Source: Haloimpatiens sp. FM7315 (GTDB taxonomy: Bacteria; Bacillota; Clostridia; Clostridiales; Clostridiaceae). From it: 64,000 nt of DNA. Positions 18,469-61,285 of the stretch are shown here, piece by piece. A model generated the notes under the pieces. That model was not told the DNA's origin and searched no databases. It saw nothing but the letters and a program-made list of their open reading frames with translations. The position numbers and the translations under genes are program-made. Each line of letters starts with the position of its first letter. Position 1 is the stretch's first letter. The stretch is taken from positions 1,166,001-1,230,000 of the forward strand of contig JBGVUE010000001.1 of NCBI GenBank assembly GCA_041861885.1, read 5' to 3'.

Positions 18469-19385
18469 ATGCCTTATGCAGATGCAGTATTTGAAGGTGG
18501 AGGAATAAAGGCATTAGGACTTATTGGTGCCCTATGCTACTTAGAGAAAAAAGGTTATAAGTTTGAAAATGTAGCAGGAACCTCAGCAGGTGCTATAATA
18601 GCCGCTTTGGTTTCAGCTGGATACAAAGGTGAAGAAATGAAAGAACTAATGAGAGATATAAGTTACAATTCTTTTAACGATAAAAGTGCTAATAAATTTA
18701 CTATTATAAAGTTAATTAATTTTATCAGGTTCAAGGGAGTATATAGCGGAGATGCTATTGAAAAATTAATTTATAATTTATTAAAAAAGAAAGGAAAGGT
18801 CAAATTTAAAGATGTATGGGGGAGTCTTCCTCTAAACTTAAAATAATAGCAACGGACATTACAAAAAAAGATATGTTAATATTGCCAGATGATCTTAAAA
18901 GGTATAATATAGATCCAAAAGAATTTGAAATAGCAAGGGCAGTTAGAATGAGCATTGGTATTCCATTTGTATTTAAACCTATAGAATTTAAATATGGAAA
19001 TAATTGTAGTTATGTTGTAGACGGTGGAATTTTAAGCAATTTTCCAATCTGGATTTTTGATGTTAAATCAAAGCCTAAGTGGCCTACTTTCGGTTTTCAA
19101 TTACAGGAAAACAAGCCTGCAAACACTTTTATTGGTAAAAAGGATTTGATATCTTACACCTTAGACGTTATAAGCACTCTCTTAGATAGAAATGAAATGA
19201 GATATATAAGGGATAAGGATATGGTAAGAACAATATCTATTCCCACCTTAGGGGTGAAAACTACTGAATTCAATTTAAGTAATGAAAAAAAGCTTAAGCT
19301 TTATAATTCTGGATATTTAGCTGCAGAGAAATTTATAGGTAAATGGGATTTTGATAGGTACTTAAGGTTATACAGAAGTAAGTAG
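18469..19385 (+). CDS. Patatin-like phospholipase, frameshifted
   Basis: ATG 18469 with AAGGTGGG upstream. The first part has the oxyanion loop GGGIKALG and the nucleophile elbow GTSAG. The reading frame then breaks at a G5 run (18818-18822), and the rest follows in the next frame with the catalytic Asp in DGGILSNFP. One extra G gives WGESSSKLK and an intact protein of about 305 aa. It would be a Ser-Asp dyad lipid acyl hydrolase, cytoplasmic since no signal peptide is seen. The cause is probably a sequence error. Confidence 0.83.
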
Positions 19386-39014: not shown

Positions 39015-39337
39015 AGTACAACCTCCCTATAAACATGATATAGTTTTAAAGACTATATATTAATATATTAACATAATACCACCTAGTAAACCATAAGGCA
39101 ACAATAAATTTTTTACTTAGTAAATATTACATAATATATTTTAAAATGATTTATTATATGGAATTATTATTCTAGTTATTATTTGTATTATAAATAATCT
39201 CTATACACAAATAAATTGAAATAAATTCAATAAAAAGAAAAATTATTTAACCTGTACATTATAAAGTATATAATATATATTGAAACTTGGAAATAGTTTT
39301 AGAAAACTTGATTTATAAAATAACAAGGAGGGATATT

Positions 39338-40056
39338 ATGTACATTGTAGACTATACTTCAGATGATTTTAAGAATTTGTCAAATAAAGTTGATACTGTG
39401 ATAATTCCTGTAGGTTCAGTAGAAGCTCACGGCCATCATCTTCCACTTGGAACAGACATATTTTCTCCAATGCTTTTTGTGAAAAAATTGATGAAAAAAT
39501 TGGAGATAAGATATGGATTGCACCAGCAATCGCCTATGGACAAAGCTATGATTTATCAATATATAAAGGGACTGTTTCAGTGCCCTCAGAGGTCATGGCG
39601 GAATACATTTATCATGTGTGCAAAAGTTTCTACGAAAATGGTCTTAAAAATATAATATTTTTAAATGGGCATGGTGGAAATATAACTGCCTTAGGTTTGG
39701 CTGCTGAAAAATTAGTAAATTTAGGTGCAGTTATAATGACTATTAATTGGTGGATGGACTTTTCTAAAGATATTTTAACTATAACTGAAGGGCAAGGTCA
39801 TGGTGGAGAAGATGAAACTTCTGCAATCTTATATTACAATGAAAAATTAGTTAAAATGGATAAAGCTTTAAAGAATACAAATAAACAATTATATCCTGTA
39901 AGATTTAAGGATAGAGGAAAGACTATATTTAAAGATGCTATAACAGGAGATGCGACTTTAGCTTCAAAAGAAAAAGGAGAGAAAATTTTTGCTTTGCTAG
40001 AAGATAAAATAATAAATAGAATAGCGCTTATGCAGCAAAAAATTTATTTTAAATAG
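39338..40056 (+). CDS. Creatininase-family amidohydrolase, frameshifted
   Basis: ATG 39338 after AAGGAGGG. The frame breaks at a T5 run (39474-39478); a sixth T restores FCEKIDEKIGDKIW and the following IYKGTVSVPSEVMAEY. The result is about 239 aa. Metal ligands appear in PVGSVEAHGHHLPLGTD (first Glu and His) and in FLNGHGGN and GQGHGGEDETS. These enzymes open cyclic amides or formamides, as in creatininase and mycofactocin/riboflavin amidases; the substrate here is unknown. Confidence 0.85.
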
Positions 40057-41803: not shown

Positions 41804-42825
41804 ATGTTTGTTCCTAAAAGAATTATTTTTGAAAAGGGTAGTTTAGATTATAATAGAGCTAAAAATATTTATGATTTTTTTAAGAAGAATGATTCAGTAG
41901 AAATGATAAATATTACATCTAACAGAGTTAAAGAAAATATACCAGGTAGTAACTTACATGATTTTTACATAGAAGGCAAAAAAACCTTAGTAGTTGGAAT
42001 AAAAAAAGGCTTTAAATATCAATCTTGTAAACCCTCTGCTAATTATCAGCTTCCACTAGTTTCAGGATGTACTGGTAAGTGCCAGTATTGTTATTTAAAT
42101 ACTAATTTAGGTTATAAACCTTATGTAAAGATATATGCAAATTTGGAAGATGTGCTTAATAAGGCTCATGAATATATAATTGAAAGAAATCCTGAAATAA
42201 CTGTTTTTGAAGGCTCTGCTACATCTGATCCTGTTTCAGTAGAACCATATACTCACTTATTAGAAGATACAATAAAATTTTTGGAAATAGTTCTAAGGGA
42301 AGATTTAGATTTGTAACTAAATATGATGATGTGGATTCCCTTTTAAACATTGAACATAATGGAAACACAGAAATAAGATTTACCATAAATACAAATAAAG
42401 CTAAAAAAGAATTTGAAAGTAGAACTTCATCAATTGATAAAAGAGTAGATGCCAGTGTAAAATTATTAAAAGCAGGGTATCCTATAGGCTTTATAATAGC
42501 GCCAGTTTTTATTTATGAAGGATATAAGGAGGATTATAAAAATCTATTGTTAGATTTAAAGAATAAATTGCCACAAAATCTTGATTTACCAATAAGTTTT
42601 GAAGTTATATCACATAGATATACAAAAAGAGCAAAGGATATAATAAATGAAATTTTTAAAGAAAATACACTTCCAATGAATGATAATGAGAGACAGTACA
42701 AATATGGGCAATTTGGATATGGAAAATACATATATAATAAACAGAATTTAGAGGATATGAAGGAATTTTTTCTAAAAGAGATAAAGGAGATATTTCCTAA
42801 AGCTATTATAAAATATATAATATGA
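41804..42825 (+). CDS. splB: Spore photoproduct lyase, frameshifted
   Basis: ATG 41804 after AGGAGG. The frame breaks at T5 (42278-42282); a sixth T restores FFGNSSKGRFRFVTKYDD and a protein of about 340 aa. The radical-SAM Cys are Cys89, Cys93 and Cys96 in SGCTGKCQYCYLNT. It repairs 5-thyminyl-5,6-dihydrothymine in germinating spores. The position matching the B. subtilis hydrogen-donor Cys141 is Ala139 here (FEGSATSD); Cys75 is the only other nearby cysteine. Confidence 0.9.
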
Positions 42826-45763: not shown

Positions 45764-48221
45764 CTAGTTATTCTTATATATAATATCATCGTATTTAATT
45801 ATACCTAAAGGATTAATCTTAATACCAATAAGATTTTCTTTGGATATATATGCCATTTTAGGATGTAGTAGAAAAATCCAAGGATAATCTTCAATAATCA
45901 TATTTTGGATATCATTATAAATATTGAATTTTTTTTCAGGATTCAATATGGTTTTTGCTTCTTCTAAAAGCTCATTTACTTTTTCATTGTTATAATGTGT
46001 AAAATTATAAAAACTTTCAGGGGAGAAAAGTGGTTTTAAAAAATTATCAGGATCACCTGTGTCAGCGGTCCAACCAAAGACAAATAAATCGCATTTATCT
46101 CTTTCATTAGAAGTATTAAAGTCATTATATTTCATTTGTGTTATAGTACATTTAATACCTAAATCAGATAAATTCTTTGCAATAAAATTTGCTATTTTTG
46201 TAAAGCAATCTTCTTTGTTAAATCCTGGCACAGCTATGTTTAAAGATGCATCATTTATGTTATATTTATTCAAAGTATTTTTGAGTATTTTAGTATCTAA
46301 AATAAATGAGGAAAGGGTAGTGTTTTTTAGTATAGAATTAGGTATAGGTCCCTTTGCTTCTTCAGCCATATTATTCATTAGGTCTTCAATTAATTTACTT
46401 CTGTTTATTGAGTAATTAAGGGCTTTTCTAATTTCAATGTTTTTAACTAATGGGTTTAAGCTATTCAAGTTAAAACCGGCATATAGGGAAGTCATTGTAT
46501 CGTAGAATTTAATATTTTTTGTAGAAATTGAATCCATATACTTAATATCACTGTAATAATCAATTGGTATAAAGTCATAAGTGTTTTCAATATAAGATTT
46601 AATAGGGAAACTTATGGAATAATCAATTTGAAATTTGTCTATGTAGGCAGCACCTAAGAAATAATCCTTAAAGGATTTTAATATGCAAAAAGTTTTTTCC
46701 GATTTATCAAGAACAAAAGCTCCGCAACCAGTTATTTTATTGTTATTAATAAAATCATTTTTGCTTATAACAGAACAGCAGTACTGAGTAAGATTAGATA
46801 GAAATCCAGTGTAAGGTGATCTTAGTTTAATGGATAAACTGTATTTATCTAGAATTTTTATACCTGTTACTTCTTTGTGTTTTCCTTCTATATATTCTTT
46901 AGAACCCTCAATATCTGTTAAGTACCAAGAATTGCAGGAATTAAATTTTGGGTTTAGTAATCTCTCTAAGGAAAACTTAACATCCTCAGAAGTGATTTCT
47001 TCGCCGTTGTGAAATTTAGCTCCTTTTCTAAGGTTAAAAATCCAAGTTAAGTTGTCTGCTTCTGCATACCAGCTTTTAGCTATTCCAGCTCCTAAATTAC
47101 CCATTGAATCTATGAGTAGTAAACCACAGTGAGTATTAAATAATATTTGCCCGCTTGCTTGGTCACTTGCAATTATTGGATCGAAATTTTGAGGCATAGT
47201 TCCTATGCATGTTTTTACTTTTATAGATATTTCTTCTTCAGAGGAGCTTGCCTCTATTATATTATCGGAAATTACTTTAAGGTTTAATGCTACTTCTTTA
47301 AGGAGATCAAAAGAATTTTGTGTAAGAAGTGTTTAAAGAAGCCCATTCCACTAAGAACATAACATCTTTTGAGCTATTTTTTAAATTATCAGTTAAGGAT
47401 AAAATACTATCTAAAAACTCAGCTTGTTTTAACATAGCTACATTTATTTCATCTGTACCTTTTTTAGTATCTTCTATAGAATTTATTATTTTATTAAACA
47501 CTGCTTTCGTGTTATTCGCAATTTTGGTTCCTTCTTCAACTTTATTGAAGCTATTAACTATAACACTATTAGTTTTTTCAATTGCTTCATTCATTTCAGA
47601 TATAGTGCTTGAAATCTGTTCTGCTGAATCTCCACTGCTTTTTGCAAGCTTTTTGATTTCCTTTGCAACAACTGCAAAACCTTTACCTGCATCTCCTGAA
47701 CGAGCAGCTTCAATTGAGGCATTTAGAGAGAGAAAGTTAGTTTGCTTTGATATATTTTTTATGATGCTTAGCATTTCATTAATATTAGAGGCTTTACAAT
47801 TAAGATCATTTATTACTGATTTTATTGAATCTACAGAATCATGTATTTCTTGCATTGCAGATAATGAATCTGTTACTGCAAGGGCGCCTTTATTGGCTAT
47901 TATAGCAGTTTTATCAGCTATTTCTTTTGATGTTTCTGTATTTGCTACAATTTCTTGTGATATAGATGAATAGTTATTAATTTCATCGGAGACCTTATTT
48001 ATGGAATTAATTTGGTTTTCCATATTTGAGTTCATGTCTCCAGTGATATTTATAAGGTTATCAATAGCAAAATTTACTTCTTTTAAATTCTTATTTAATC
48101 TGAATAGTACTTTTTTATTGTTGTTTCTACGAATAATGTTGTTGTTATTAAGATTTTTGTCTATGATAGTACTACTATTAGTGTTTGGAATTGAAATGTG
48201 TTGTTTTCTAAATTTAAACAT
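45764..48221 (-). CDS. Cytosolic chemoreceptor fused to an oligopeptide-binding (SBP family 5) domain, frameshifted
   Basis: ATG 48221 after GGGGG. The first about 300 codons form an MCP signalling domain: coiled coils around the tip [20 protein letters not shown] and [13 protein letters not shown]. They end at 47307. A second frame, with no start codon upstream of its first beta strand, continues as [17 protein letters not shown] and then a full SBP_bac_5 domain ([50 protein letters not shown]). A one-base insertion or two-base loss near 47308-47335 joins them to about 819 aa. There is no signal peptide or membrane segment, so it should be a cytoplasmic receptor. It lies opposite the peptidase and Opp genes. 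Confidence 0.72.
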
Positions 48222-48650
48222 AATATCCCCCAAGAACATAATAAATACAAAAATTATCCTAAGCAAAAATAATCCTGTCTCTACTGCATACATAATAAAG
48301 ATGGAAAAAATTAATGATTTGAATATATTCGAAAAACTATATATTAATGTATATTATACCATTTTATTTAGTAATTAGTAATATACATTATGAATTTTCC
48401 TAAAATTCACGCTATTGCTTTACTTAAATTTAAATTTTTATAATACTGATTAAGCTTTCTTATATTAATGGTCACTATTGTTATTCACTTAATGCAACTA
48501 TTTTTGTTAATAGTAAAATTAAGTATATACTTTCTTTGGAAAATCCATGTACTACTTTACCTTGTGGAAGAATATATCATCTAATTTAGAAATAAATATA
48601 CTTCAAAATATAATATATATTCGGATAATCATTTGATTTTATAATATTCA

Positions 48651-48679: not shown

Positions 48680-48755
48680 TCCAGTACAGAATATTGTCTA
48701 AAATAGGTAAATATTGTATTATTTATGAAAAAATACAATATTATAAGGAGGCATT

Positions 48756-50211
48756 ATGAAAAAAGTTATTAAGCATTATCTTGGGGAGTGCGTTACTACT
48801 TAATAATTTAATTGTAGTTAAAGCCACTGAAACACCTTTGAATTTACCTAGTAGGTATGATTTAAGAAATGTAGAGGGCAAAAGCTACGTAACACCTGCA
48901 AGAAATCAAGGAAGAGCAGGTTCTTGTTGGGCTTTTGCAGCAATGGCATCTTTGGAGTCTGCTATTATGAAAAAAAATGGGGGAGTTCCAATAGAAAAGG
49001 AAGAAGATAAGCATAAAGGAATAGACTTTATTGATTTATCTGAGGATCACATGGATAGAAATAACGGTTTTGATTACGAACCTCGACAAGGTGGACGTTA
49101 TGAATGTGCAGTATCCTATTTAAACAGTAGAAAGGGTCCTTACTTAGAACAGGATTTTCCTTTTGGCAAAGTAAATAGCGATGGAACTTATGAAATGCCA
49201 GAAAGTAAAGAAGTTACAGAAGAAAAAATTCCCTATTATGTTCAAGGTGTAAAGTTCATAGAAAATGTAGACGTACATACTTTTGCTACAAAAGAGAATA
49301 TGATGGATAAGATTAAAGATACCAAAAAAGCAATTATGGACTTTGGTGCAGTTTCTACTAATATATATCAATCCCACGATGGAAAGGAAACATTCCCTTA
49401 TACAGATGAAAAATATTATAATGAAGATACCTTTGCCTATTATTGTGATGGACTTGATGGAAAGTATAATAAAATTACAAATCATGCTATATCAATAGTA
49501 GGATGGGATGATGATTTTTCAAAGGACAATTTTAGACTAAACCTAAGTATAATGGTGCTTGGATATGTAAGGATGCACAGGGACAAGGCTTTGGAGATAG
49601 TGGTTTTTATTATGTATCCTATGAAAGCGTTTGTATAACTACAACTCATTATTGCTTTACAGATGTTGTAAAAGCCATAGTAAGATTTCTAAAGAAATGA
49701 AAATTAACCTAAAAAAAGATACAAAGAAGCCAAATATAGGAGAAATAAAATATACACAAAATAAAATTGAAGTTCCTGTTAAGGATGAAACTTCAGGAAT
49801 AAAAGAAGTTAGATGTAGTTTAAAGGAAGAAAGCGGAAAAGAAATCACTAAAAATCTAGAAATAAATGAGGGCATTGCAGCCTTAAGCACAGAGAATAGC
49901 TTTAAAGGAACTATAAAAGTTGATATGAATAAAGAAAATAATAAAGAGACAATAAGTTATATTAAAGATAACTTAAATAAAGATGGTAATATATATTTGT
50001 TAGGAGAAAAGAGTGTAGTTGCTGAAAGTATTATAGATTCACTTAAATCAGAAGGATTTAGTAAATTTAAAAGATTAGGTGGAAAGGACAAATAACTAAA
50101 CAAAAGGAATATTTGAATTCAACTGATATTAAAGATTTGTATATATTAGGTGGAACTGGAGCAGTTTCTGAAGAAACAGTAAAAAAATTAATGAATAATT
50201 TTAAAAATTAA
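48756..50211 (+). pseudogene. Secreted C1-family cysteine peptidase with cell-wall-binding repeat (Cwp84-like), several frameshifts
   Basis: ATG 48756 after AAGGAGG. Two extra As in the A6 run 48759-48764 give the signal peptide MKKKLLSIILGSALLLNN. The papain-like domain has the catalytic Cys in NQGRAGSCWAFAA and His in NHAISIVGWDDD. Further breaks at about 49534, 49670-49673 and 50083 separate the GAWICKDAQGQGFGDSG segment and a C-terminal half like a cell-wall-binding type 2 repeat (NIYLLGEKSVVAESIIDSL, DLYILGGTGAVSEETVKKL). At the usual catalytic Asn (KNSWG) it has KDAQG. Four breaks leave open whether it is a true pseudogene or poor sequence. It would be a surface protease feeding the Opp importer. 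Confidence 0.68.
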
Positions 50212-52097: not shown

Positions 52098-53065
52098 ATG
52101 AAAAAGTATATTTTAAAAAGATTTTTTATATCTTTAGTTATGATTTTTGGAGTTTCAATTATAATTTTTGTGCTTGTTCAAAGTCAACCAGGGGATCCTT
52201 ATTCAACAATGATAAGTCCCACTATTAGTAAGGAAACTGTACAAAAAATGCTAAGAAAAATAGGATATTATGATCCTATATGGCTTAAATACGTTAAATG
52301 GCTTAAGAGAGCTATTGTGGGGAATTTAGGATATTCAATAAAATATAAAATTCCAGTATTAAATGTTATAACACCAAGACTATATAATACCCTTATTTTG
52401 TCTATAACTTCCTTTATAATTAGTGCAATTGTAGCTATTATAGCTGGAGTTTATGCAGCTTCAAAGAGAAATTCATTCTTTGATAAAATAAGTGGGCTTT
52501 TAGCCTTTATTTTTTTATCAATTCCAACTTTTTCTTTGGACTTCTTTTAGTGAAAGGGTTAAGTTATGATACTAGTTTACTTCCTACATCTGGAATGGTA
52601 ACTATTGATAAAGAATACACAGGATTTAAACATATTGTAGATGTTACAAAACACATGATTATGCCAGTTATAGTATTATCTTTAACTCAAATTGCGGTTT
52701 TATTTAGGTATACACGCTCATCTATGATAGACTCACTAGACAAGCAGTATATTGTAACTGCTAGGGCTAAGGGGTTAAGTAGAAAAAAGGTAATTTGGAA
52801 TCATGGATTTAAAAATTCTATGATTTCAATTATTACAATTCTTTGCATGCAGCTCCCTTCTTTATTTTCAGGAGCTCTTATAACTGAAACAATTTTTGTT
52901 TGGCCAGGGATAGGAAGACTTAACTATGATGCAGTAGTATCAAGAGATTATCCTCTTATTATGGGGATAGCTATGTTAACTGCTATTCTTATAATATTTT
53001 CTAATTTCTTGTCTGATGTTTTATATTCTGTAATTGATCCAAGAATTCGATTACACAAGGATTAG
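52098..53065 (+). CDS. oppB: Oligopeptide ABC transporter permease, frameshifted
   Basis: ATG 52098 after AAGAGG. The frame breaks at T5 (52529-52533); a sixth T gives IPTFFFGLLLVKGLSYD and an intact protein of about 322 aa with six membrane segments and the cytoplasmic EAA-like loop ARAKGLSRKKVIWNHGFKN that contacts the ATPases. Second gene of the opp operon. Confidence 0.87.
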
Positions 53066-59210: not shown

Positions 59211-61285
59211 GTGAAAAAAATAAGTACAAAAATAATTTTAGCAATTTTAGCCTGTTCAATTACTTTAGCAGTGCTGATTTCTCAGATATCAGTATATAGT
59301 GCAAAGAAGATGATTATTGAAAAAAGTAATGCATTAATATCCAATCAAGTTCAAATTAAAGCAGATGAGTTAAACAAGCAGTTTGATATAGCAAATTCTA
59401 CAGTGGATGGAATATCTAGGGCTGTTTCCGGAATGTTAGATGAGGTTGTAATTAGAAAGGAACCAGGAAGAGCTATAAATATAATTAAACCTGTAGTAAA
59501 AAATTATACAAATGATATGATAGAAAAAGTTTACGTGGAATTGAATAACAGTGCTACAAAAGGGGATTTTGCTATACAGTATAGTAAAGATACAGGAAAG
59601 TTTAATGAAGAAATTTTTAACTTAAAAGGAGAAGTTTTTGAAAAAGATGATCCAGACTTAGAATGGTATTTTAAGCCCATTGAAAAACAAAAGATGATTT
59701 GGACCAAACCATACCTAGACAGTGAAAGTAAAGTAAAGATGGTTTCTTGTATTAAACCAATATACAAAGAAAAAACATTGTTAGGTGTTGTTGGTGTAGA
59801 TATAAGTATTGAAAAATGCATTAAATTAGTGAATTCAATGAAAATATATGATACAGGAATAGTGTTTTTATTTGATGGGGATCTTAATAATGTTGTAAAT
59901 AAAATCCAGACTAATGAGGGGAATTTTAAAAATATTAAAGATGTAGAAAATAAAGAATTAAATAAAATAATAACTAATATGAGAGAAAACAAATCAGGAA
60001 CTAATAAATATTCTTATAAAAATGAAAAAAATATTTTTGGATTTGGGCATTTAAATAATGGCTGGATACTTGGAGTAACAGTGAATGAAAAAATAGTAAT
60101 GGAAGGTGTTTATGATTTATTTATGTTTTTAAACATTCTTCTTATTGTAGGCATAATAATAATTTTAATTTTAGCTTATTATTTTGGTAAAAAACTATCA
60201 AAACCTATAGTTTTAAGTACAGGATATATTGAAAAATTATCAAATTTTGATTTGCGATTAAATGATGATAAAGAGGTTATAAAAAAGACATCTAAATTGA
60301 AAGATGAAATGGGAATTATGCTAAAATCAATATTTAAACTAAGATCAAAATTGCATAATTTATCAAAGAGTCTTAAGAATAATTCTAAAGATGTATTGGG
60401 TCAGTCTGAAAATATTTTTGCTCTTTCAAAAATGCTCTTGAATCTATGGATTTGGTTTCAAAAACCTCTGGAGAGCTGGCAAAGGGAGCTACAGATCAGG
60501 CTACTCAAGGTCAAAAGGCATTAGAGAGAATGATGAAATTTGCTGATAAAATCAATCTAGCTTCAGGGAATTGCAAAGAAGTAGAAAAATATTCTAAAAG
60601 TACAGAGAGTTTGAAAGAAAAAGCTATGGATTCTATGGAAAATTTAGAAGAAAAATTAGATCATAATAACAAAATGGTGAAGAAATTGGTTTTAAGCATA
60701 GAAACCCTAGCAGACAAATCAAGTTATATAGAAAAAATATTAGAAACTATAGAGGCTATTTCAGAGCAAACAAATTTGCTTTCATTAAATGCAGCTATTG
60801 AAGCTGTTAGAGCTGGAAACTCAGGTAAAGGATTTGCAGTAGTAGCAGAGGAAATAAGAAAGCTAGCAGAAGAATCTTCAGGTGCTACAAAGAAAATAGG
60901 AGAGATAGTAAAGGAAATAAAAGAAGAAATTAAAGAATCTAAAGGCAATATGGTTATAGTAAAAGAATCTAGTGAAATATGTGATAGTGCTCTAAAAGAG
61001 GCAGTAGATTCTTTTAATTTAATAAGTGATAACATTAGTAAAACAATAATTAATATTGAGACATTGACTGTAAATCTAGAGGGTGTAGATAAAGATAAGG
61101 GTGATGTTGTAAATTCTATTGAGGAAATAGCTTCAATTTCAGAAGAATCTGCAGCAGCTATTGAGGAGATATCGGCTTCTATGAATGAACAAGTTTTATC
61201 TTTAGAAAATATAAAAAATTCTGCTAGCAAATTAAAGGATATTGCAGATACTTTAGATAGTATTGTAAATAAAATAAAATTATAG
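59211..61285 (+). CDS. Methyl-accepting chemotaxis protein with dCache-type sensor, frameshifted
   Basis: GTG 59211 after GGAGG. First membrane segment about 8-28, then a roughly 270-residue extracellular dCache-like sensor ([27 protein letters not shown]), second segment about 300-322, HAMP-like linker and MCP domain. The frame breaks at A5 (60428-60432); a sixth A gives [18 protein letters not shown]. The signalling tip [20 protein letters not shown] has Val for the usual Ala. About 691 aa when joined. The ligand is unknown. Confidence 0.88.

Follow-up and report, generated by a model that had tools for sequence, protein, structure and literature searches.

Chemoreceptors of the usual design, transmembrane ones for example, carry their sensor outside the membrane, and cytosolic chemoreceptors for oxygen, for zinc, or for oxidants and energy state exist as well. 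We know of no chemoreceptor for intracellular peptides, nor of any role as a peptide sensor for SgrR, a cytosolic SBP_bac_5 regulator. Cytosolic receptors are described as making CheA/CheW arrays without a membrane (PMC3964821). The account of TlpD, a receptor that senses zinc, describes changes at the ligand site that accompany a distorted coiled coil and shifts at the kinase interface (PMC12871147), and SgrR and its Vibrio homologue DsvR are reported as regulators with a C-terminal SBP_bac_5 domain (PMC13060122).

Here, we analyzed a locus in which a chemoreceptor signalling domain (MCPsignal) and an SBP_bac_5 binding domain adjoin in two frames on the minus strand of the window, i.e., the whole 64,000-nt stretch of Haloimpatiens sp. 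FM7315 DNA under study. We propose, with a probability of roughly 0.6, that the unbroken locus would encode a soluble cytosolic chemoreceptor for a peptide-like ligand, likely a short cytosolic peptide, and that the window's gene is frameshifted, likely by error.

Results

Two frames of the window are halves of one receptor gene

The MCP half (47307..48221, minus) comprises a short aromatic/basic N-terminus, a low-complexity linker, and the MCPsignal hairpin, with GGGGG before its start. The SBP half (45764..47332, minus) holds the end of the MCP helix, a linker, and the C-terminal SBP_bac_5 domain. Each piece matched one Pfam domain, namely, MCPsignal (5.8e-37) and SBP_bac_5 (4.8e-63), respectively. 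In the region of frame change (47307..47335, minus), the MCP frame stops and the SBP frame opens, and the aligned intact homologues run across it unbroken. According to the ORF list for the window, the SBP frame begins at 47332, right after a stop, and stays open to 45764; the ATG at 47197 is the earliest ATG, GTG, or TTG in it. The window's binding domain (47227-45767; 487 residues) was modelled with AlphaFold at a mean pLDDT of 92.6; in this model, the first strand spans residues 3 to 7, and the ATG at 47197 corresponds to Met11. As the first strand precedes this codon, the second ORF cannot be a complete stand-alone binding protein, which bears out the view of a preliminary description that the first SBP_bac_5 strand lies before any usable start.

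To relate the window's arrangement to that of other genomes, the SBP frame was searched against 98 genomes, i.e., its own and those of 97 relatives. An open frame of 817 to 862 aa ran through the SBP match in 24 of the 97 other genomes, and the frames in G000, G068, and G076 were shorter and interrupted. All 24 intact proteins that were aligned carry both Pfam domains in the same order, and MCPsignal was matched in 25 of 26 rows, the remaining row being the window's SBP piece. When 160 named relatives were scanned with only the SBP half as the query and the best 80 were kept, 77 loci were obtained, in 74 of which both halves were found in one frame by home-made profiles. These 74 fused loci contain 75 ORFs (one tandem pair) with a median length of 824 aa; the count includes L045 and L068, which are cut by frameshifts and were omitted from the 73-row alignment. 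Since the homologues hold both domains in one frame, the simplest reading of the window's pieces is as two halves of a single gene. The search for joint MCPsignal and SBP_bac_5 architectures thus returned both domains in one frame across related clostridia (24 of 97 relatives; 74 of 77 named loci), and confirms that the MCP-SBP_bac_5 fusion is real and that, as the preliminary description had held, the two domains were one protein.

Distribution and phylogeny of the fused receptors

Carriers of the fusion include Clostridium carboxidivorans, C. drakei, C. algidicarnis, Caloramator, Tissierella, Alkalithermobacter, Asaccharospora, Oceanirhabdus, and Hathewaya. Two fused receptors stand in tandem in Oceanirhabdus seepicola (L083:4921-7413 and L083:7829-10315). 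Of 391 genomes drawn class-wide, 10 matched at 1e-100, i.e., the window's own, eight of 826 to 854 aa, and one of 559 aa; the eight were judged by frame length, and two of them (G023 and G035) were also seen in the alignment. Judged from these searches, the fusion is patchy, common near the window's genus and rare class-wide. Three of the 77 named loci differ from the rest: L111 is in pieces, L115 is without the MCP half, and L112 belongs to a WOR-3 metagenome-assembled genome. The L112 frame (L112:1-3309) encodes 1,103 aa with MCPsignal at 136-256 and SBP_bac_5 at 651-1020, and is open at the contig edge. As this genome lies outside Bacillota, transfer, a separate fusion, or a binning error is possible. 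In the one member tabulated in full, every NCBIfam model stayed below its cut-off, and the 24 models listed include none for the fusion. Carriage on plasmids was considered and rejected, as the four matching plasmid records cover only the SBP half, at 26 to 27% identity.

In the SBP tree, the fused rows separated from 15 chosen non-fused proteins with a support of 93, where two of the 15 non-fused rows are the same gene, branches are long, and the WOR-3 row sits with the fused ones; by this tree, a single origin of the fused SBP half is possible. The MCP tree (support 86) was built on 73 of the 74 fused rows (one was without the cutting pattern) and 15 of 16 other MCPs. When the two halves of the window's gene were placed in these separate trees, both joined L075 of Hathewaya massiliensis (93 in the SBP tree, 97 in the MCP tree), which fits common descent of the halves, although the branches are long and joins of this kind are often false. 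A second subgroup of 12 rows was seen in the SBP tree, with L030 and L032, from the two same-genus genomes searched, and L089 and L093 among its members. The same-genus relatives hold this second subgroup only, their SBP halves being 35% and 33% identical to the window's, and the window's genome holds only the type of the first subgroup; loss or transfer may possibly account for this mismatch within the genus.

The signalling hairpin

The intact protein of C. algidicarnis (L039) was modelled by AlphaFold from the 73-row alignment (mean pLDDT 86.3, pTM 0.68). The model consists of a helix at 23-180, a tip, a helix at 182-331, and, after a short linker, the binding domain, which starts at residue 341, i.e., a hairpin of ~308 residues with the binding domain at its base. 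This length is similar to that of the crystallised Thermotoga receptor 2ch7, a chain of 309 residues. The model thus places the binding domain where the HAMP domain and membrane helices stand in other receptors. Tip columns, including Glu177 of L039 (the E of IEAA), are invariant in 73 of 73 fused sequences. An exact methylation-type motif is present in the first helix of 50 of 75 proteins, with 47 occurrences at one place, 81 residues before the tip IEAA, which is presumably near a known methylation site by Tsr numbering; the other 25 are without the exact motif, and the window deviates from it at the last position only. A C-terminal CheR/CheB pentapeptide was looked for by sight and dismissed, as the chain terminates in the binding domain. 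The hairpin of a transmembrane receptor of the window's genome (L001) can be aligned to residues 22-332 of L039 at 26% identity and with 15 gap positions. In the 683-aa frame of L001 the hairpin stands at the C-terminal end, whereas the fused receptors have their binding domain there instead.

Start site and cellular location

With translation from the ATG at 48221, the MCP half reaches a maximal 19-residue Kyte-Doolittle hydropathy of 0.92; for this start, the preliminary description of a protein that begins with MFKFRKQ and has no membrane segment holds. An in-frame ATG at 48293 would add an upstream extension (48222..48293, minus) with a hydrophobic stretch (19-residue hydropathy of 2.46), which we judged to lie outside the receptor protein. 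No ribosome-binding site is visible before 48293, and GGGGG is found upstream of 48221. In 73 of 74 homologous stop-to-stop frames, nothing exceeds 1.6 in the first 90 residues; L081 is the exception, at 1.71. In 18 of 74, at most 3 codons separate the upstream stop from the first start codon. Among the 75 fused proteins, the highest 19-residue hydropathy is 1.75 and the median is 1.19, with two proteins above 1.6, compared with 1.94 to 2.68 for three exported SBP_bac_5 homologues. Neither a signal peptide nor a membrane segment is conserved among the 75 fused proteins by hydropathy, and the export signal or lipobox of an SBP_bac_5 transport component is absent from them. As no export signal or membrane segment is conserved, the predicted location of the fused receptor is most likely cytosolic.

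Many homologues start with a similar aromatic-basic motif. This N-terminal motif (48221-48200, minus, in the window; L039 to L114 among the homologues) was counted in 57 of 73 fused proteins and in 71 of 495 neighbouring ORFs. With residues 2-20 shuffled 500 times, it occurred in 23.7 of 73 proteins on average and in 39 at the most, and residues 21-40 gave 6 of 73. For intact L039 of C. algidicarnis, the model has low confidence up to residue 27, after the aromatic-basic N-terminus. The motif is possibly a tether to the membrane or the pole.

The binding domain and its ligand

The best Foldseek matches of the window's domain were YliB (Z 41.3, rmsd 2.2, 464 residues), which we take to be GsiB, together with DppE, 5u4o (a Bacillus family-5 protein), GbpA, and DppA, with slight differences among them. 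Binding proteins for glutathione, murein tripeptide, nickel, and sialic acid match structurally at similar scores, and titles of PDB entries for SBP_bac_5 proteins name nickel complexes, opines, glutathione, heme, and sialic acid as ligands.

All 74 sequences share the Trp and Asp of a W-x-x-D motif. By profile alignment, the Asp corresponds to Asp408 of mature DppA, i.e., Asp436 of the precursor, which presumably holds the amino group of the peptide. The invariance of this aligned residue makes a ligand with an amino group likely for the fused family, as predicted from sequence. DppA Arg383 is presumably a ligand residue of the dipeptide binder, and the title of PDB entry 8z1z describes DppA altered at both Arg383 and Asp436. 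An Arg is found within one column of Arg383 in 48 of 74 sequences and a Pro in the window, where the alignment may be one column off; the members of the second subgroup that were inspected have no Arg at this position. Given that the window has no Arg there, a classical dipeptide ligand is doubtful for the window's copy.

Neighbouring genes and chemotaxis partners

Divergent from the window's copy lie genes for a C1 peptidase, an exported SBP_bac_5 protein, and OppB, as assigned by Pfam; oppC, oppD, and oppF, named by sight from the ORF list, are also nearby, and several of these neighbours are split. The C1 (papain-type) peptidase gene (48740-50095), opposite the receptor, looks split by sight near its start and near 49630, its main frame matching Peptidase_C1. 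Of the 74 fused loci, 48 offered at least 4 kb on both sides for the neighbour test. No neighbouring gene is conserved across the 74 loci. The top two neighbour clusters, a pool of ABC ATPases and a pool holding other MCPs, occur at 14 of 74 loci each. By the fused-family profile, which very divergent copies could escape, a further SBP_bac_5 gene is present in the fetched stretch of one of 74 named loci (L079). The preliminary description had taken the opp and peptidase neighbourhood as a sign that imported peptides are sensed; we abandoned this argument, as the linkage is not conserved among the 74 loci and is therefore no functional support.

The window's genome has four matches to the CheW domain, one of them within a CheA-sized frame of 690 aa, and four flagellin matches. 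Among the 27 fusion-carrying genomes, the CheW family was found in 26 and flagellin in 26, the lone exception for both being G074, a genome that is 78% complete. As CheW is also present in 44 of 51 relatives without the fusion (Fisher p = 0.25), its co-occurrence lends no support to a functional reading.

The frame break in the window

Two-frame splits were also seen elsewhere in the window, in the genes for a patatin (18469-19385), a creatininase (39287-40056), a spore photoproduct lyase (41804-42825), oppB (52098-53065), and a dCache chemoreceptor (59211-61285). Outside the window, some SBP_bac_5 genes of the same genome are split too. A technical cause is probable because the window carries these other split genes, which suggest a sequence rich in frameshifts; rather than a feature of the receptor, the break is most likely either an error of the sequence or a lesion of recent origin.

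Discussion

The mechanical ORF list gives two ORFs, as would be expected if a chemoreceptor gene merely adjoined a separate gene for a periplasmic binding protein. We regard this arrangement as next to impossible, as no start codon precedes the first strand of the AlphaFold model, the second ORF is without an export signal, and single frames occur in 24 related genomes and at 74 named loci. It would also be highly improbable that the receptor is anchored in the membrane through a longer N-terminus. Such an anchor would draw on the in-frame ATG at 48293 and its stretch at 2.46, but this start was rejected on the strength of the lack of a visible ribosome-binding site there, the GGGGG before 48221, the conserved start motif, the 73 of 74 homologous frames without a stretch above 1.6, and the 18 of 74 that start at most 3 codons past the upstream stop. 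A weightier objection, though still an unlikely one, is that the window's gene is a pseudogene made of two non-functional pieces, which would be compatible with any functional reading of the family. In its favor are the frame break at 47307-47335, the length of the branch that leads to the window in the SBP tree (0.64), a changed ligand residue, and the two same-genus genomes searched, which hold the second subgroup only; however, the splits in the patatin, creatininase, spore photoproduct lyase, oppB, and second MCP genes, together with those in SBP_bac_5 genes of the genome, point to sequence errors, and both halves are full domains apart from the break.

About as unlikely, in our estimation, is that the binding domain senses a non-peptide or other peptide-like metabolite of the cytosol, such as glutathione, murein peptides, a metal chelate, or a sugar derivative. 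The similar scores of the glutathione-, murein-tripeptide-, nickel-, and sialic-acid-binding proteins would allow this, as would the Arg position of the dipeptide binder, which is not kept in the window, and SgrR and DsvR are tied in the published account to sugar-phosphate stress and cell division (PMC13060122). Against it stands the W-x-x-D motif, with its Asp aligned to Asp436 of DppA and invariant in 74 of 74 sequences; moreover, SgrR is a distant guide, as the member tabulated scores 42.4 bits against a cut-off of 476. We therefore favor a receptor for a peptide-like ligand. Of the earlier proposal of a cytosolic peptide sensor wired to chemotaxis, the MCP half, the missing export signal, and the CheW-domain and flagellin genes of the genome sustain the cytosolic and chemotactic part; that the ligand is a peptide, and an imported one, stays inferential.

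In such a receptor, the MCP coiled-coil hairpin would present the usual tip for binding CheA and CheW, and receptors may dimerise and join or form an array with these partners. The domain of DppA/GsiB/MppA type, carried on a short linker, would close around a ligand that bears a free amino group, most probably a short cytosolic peptide that could stem from import by Opp or Dpp or from protein turnover. By analogy with TlpD, closure of the domain might change how the helices pair at the hairpin base and, through this, CheA activity, with CheR and CheB adapting the receptor. The cell could then steer by its internal supply of peptide, and not by an external gradient alone.

More tentatively, and with the balance of our judgment somewhat against it, the fused receptors may constitute a clostridial chemoreceptor class that reads the cytosolic pool of short peptides through an oligopeptide-binding domain moved inside, in which the aromatic-basic motif on a disordered tether may hold the receptor at the membrane near transporters or the array. 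If this is true, a proteolytic anaerobe would navigate by the peptide actually taken up. A conserved soluble receptor of two domains would allow a direct test of whether peptide-fermenting clostridia are guided by uptake or by external concentration, and it would offer a tractable case of a Venus-flytrap domain driving an MCP hairpin in which neither a membrane nor a HAMP domain takes part.

Among known systems, TlpD has its sensor at the C-terminal end, as does the fused receptor. This Helicobacter pylori receptor is likewise soluble, with a long coiled coil and a ligand domain described as coupled to the kinase tip over 140 Å (PMC12871147). The sensor of TlpD, however, is a zinc-binding CZB domain, for which no match at E ≤ 0.001 was found in 26 rows, whereas that of the fused receptor is an SBP_bac_5 fold of ~480 residues. 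DppA, GsiB (YliB), MppA, and DppE have in common with the fused receptors the fold and the Asp aligned to Asp436, but the fused receptors are without an export signal or lipobox and are joined to an MCP. Factors of the SgrR type are intracellular with a C-terminal SBP_bac_5 domain, like the fused receptor, but have an HTH output; no HTH match was found in 26 rows, and the member tabulated is below the SgrR cut-off (42.4 versus 476 bits). The open-licence literature searched gave no description of a fusion of MCPsignal and SBP_bac_5, which is no proof that none exists. We therefore rate the fused receptors as a sensor variant of the cytosolic chemoreceptors, in which the parts are known and the combination is apparently new.
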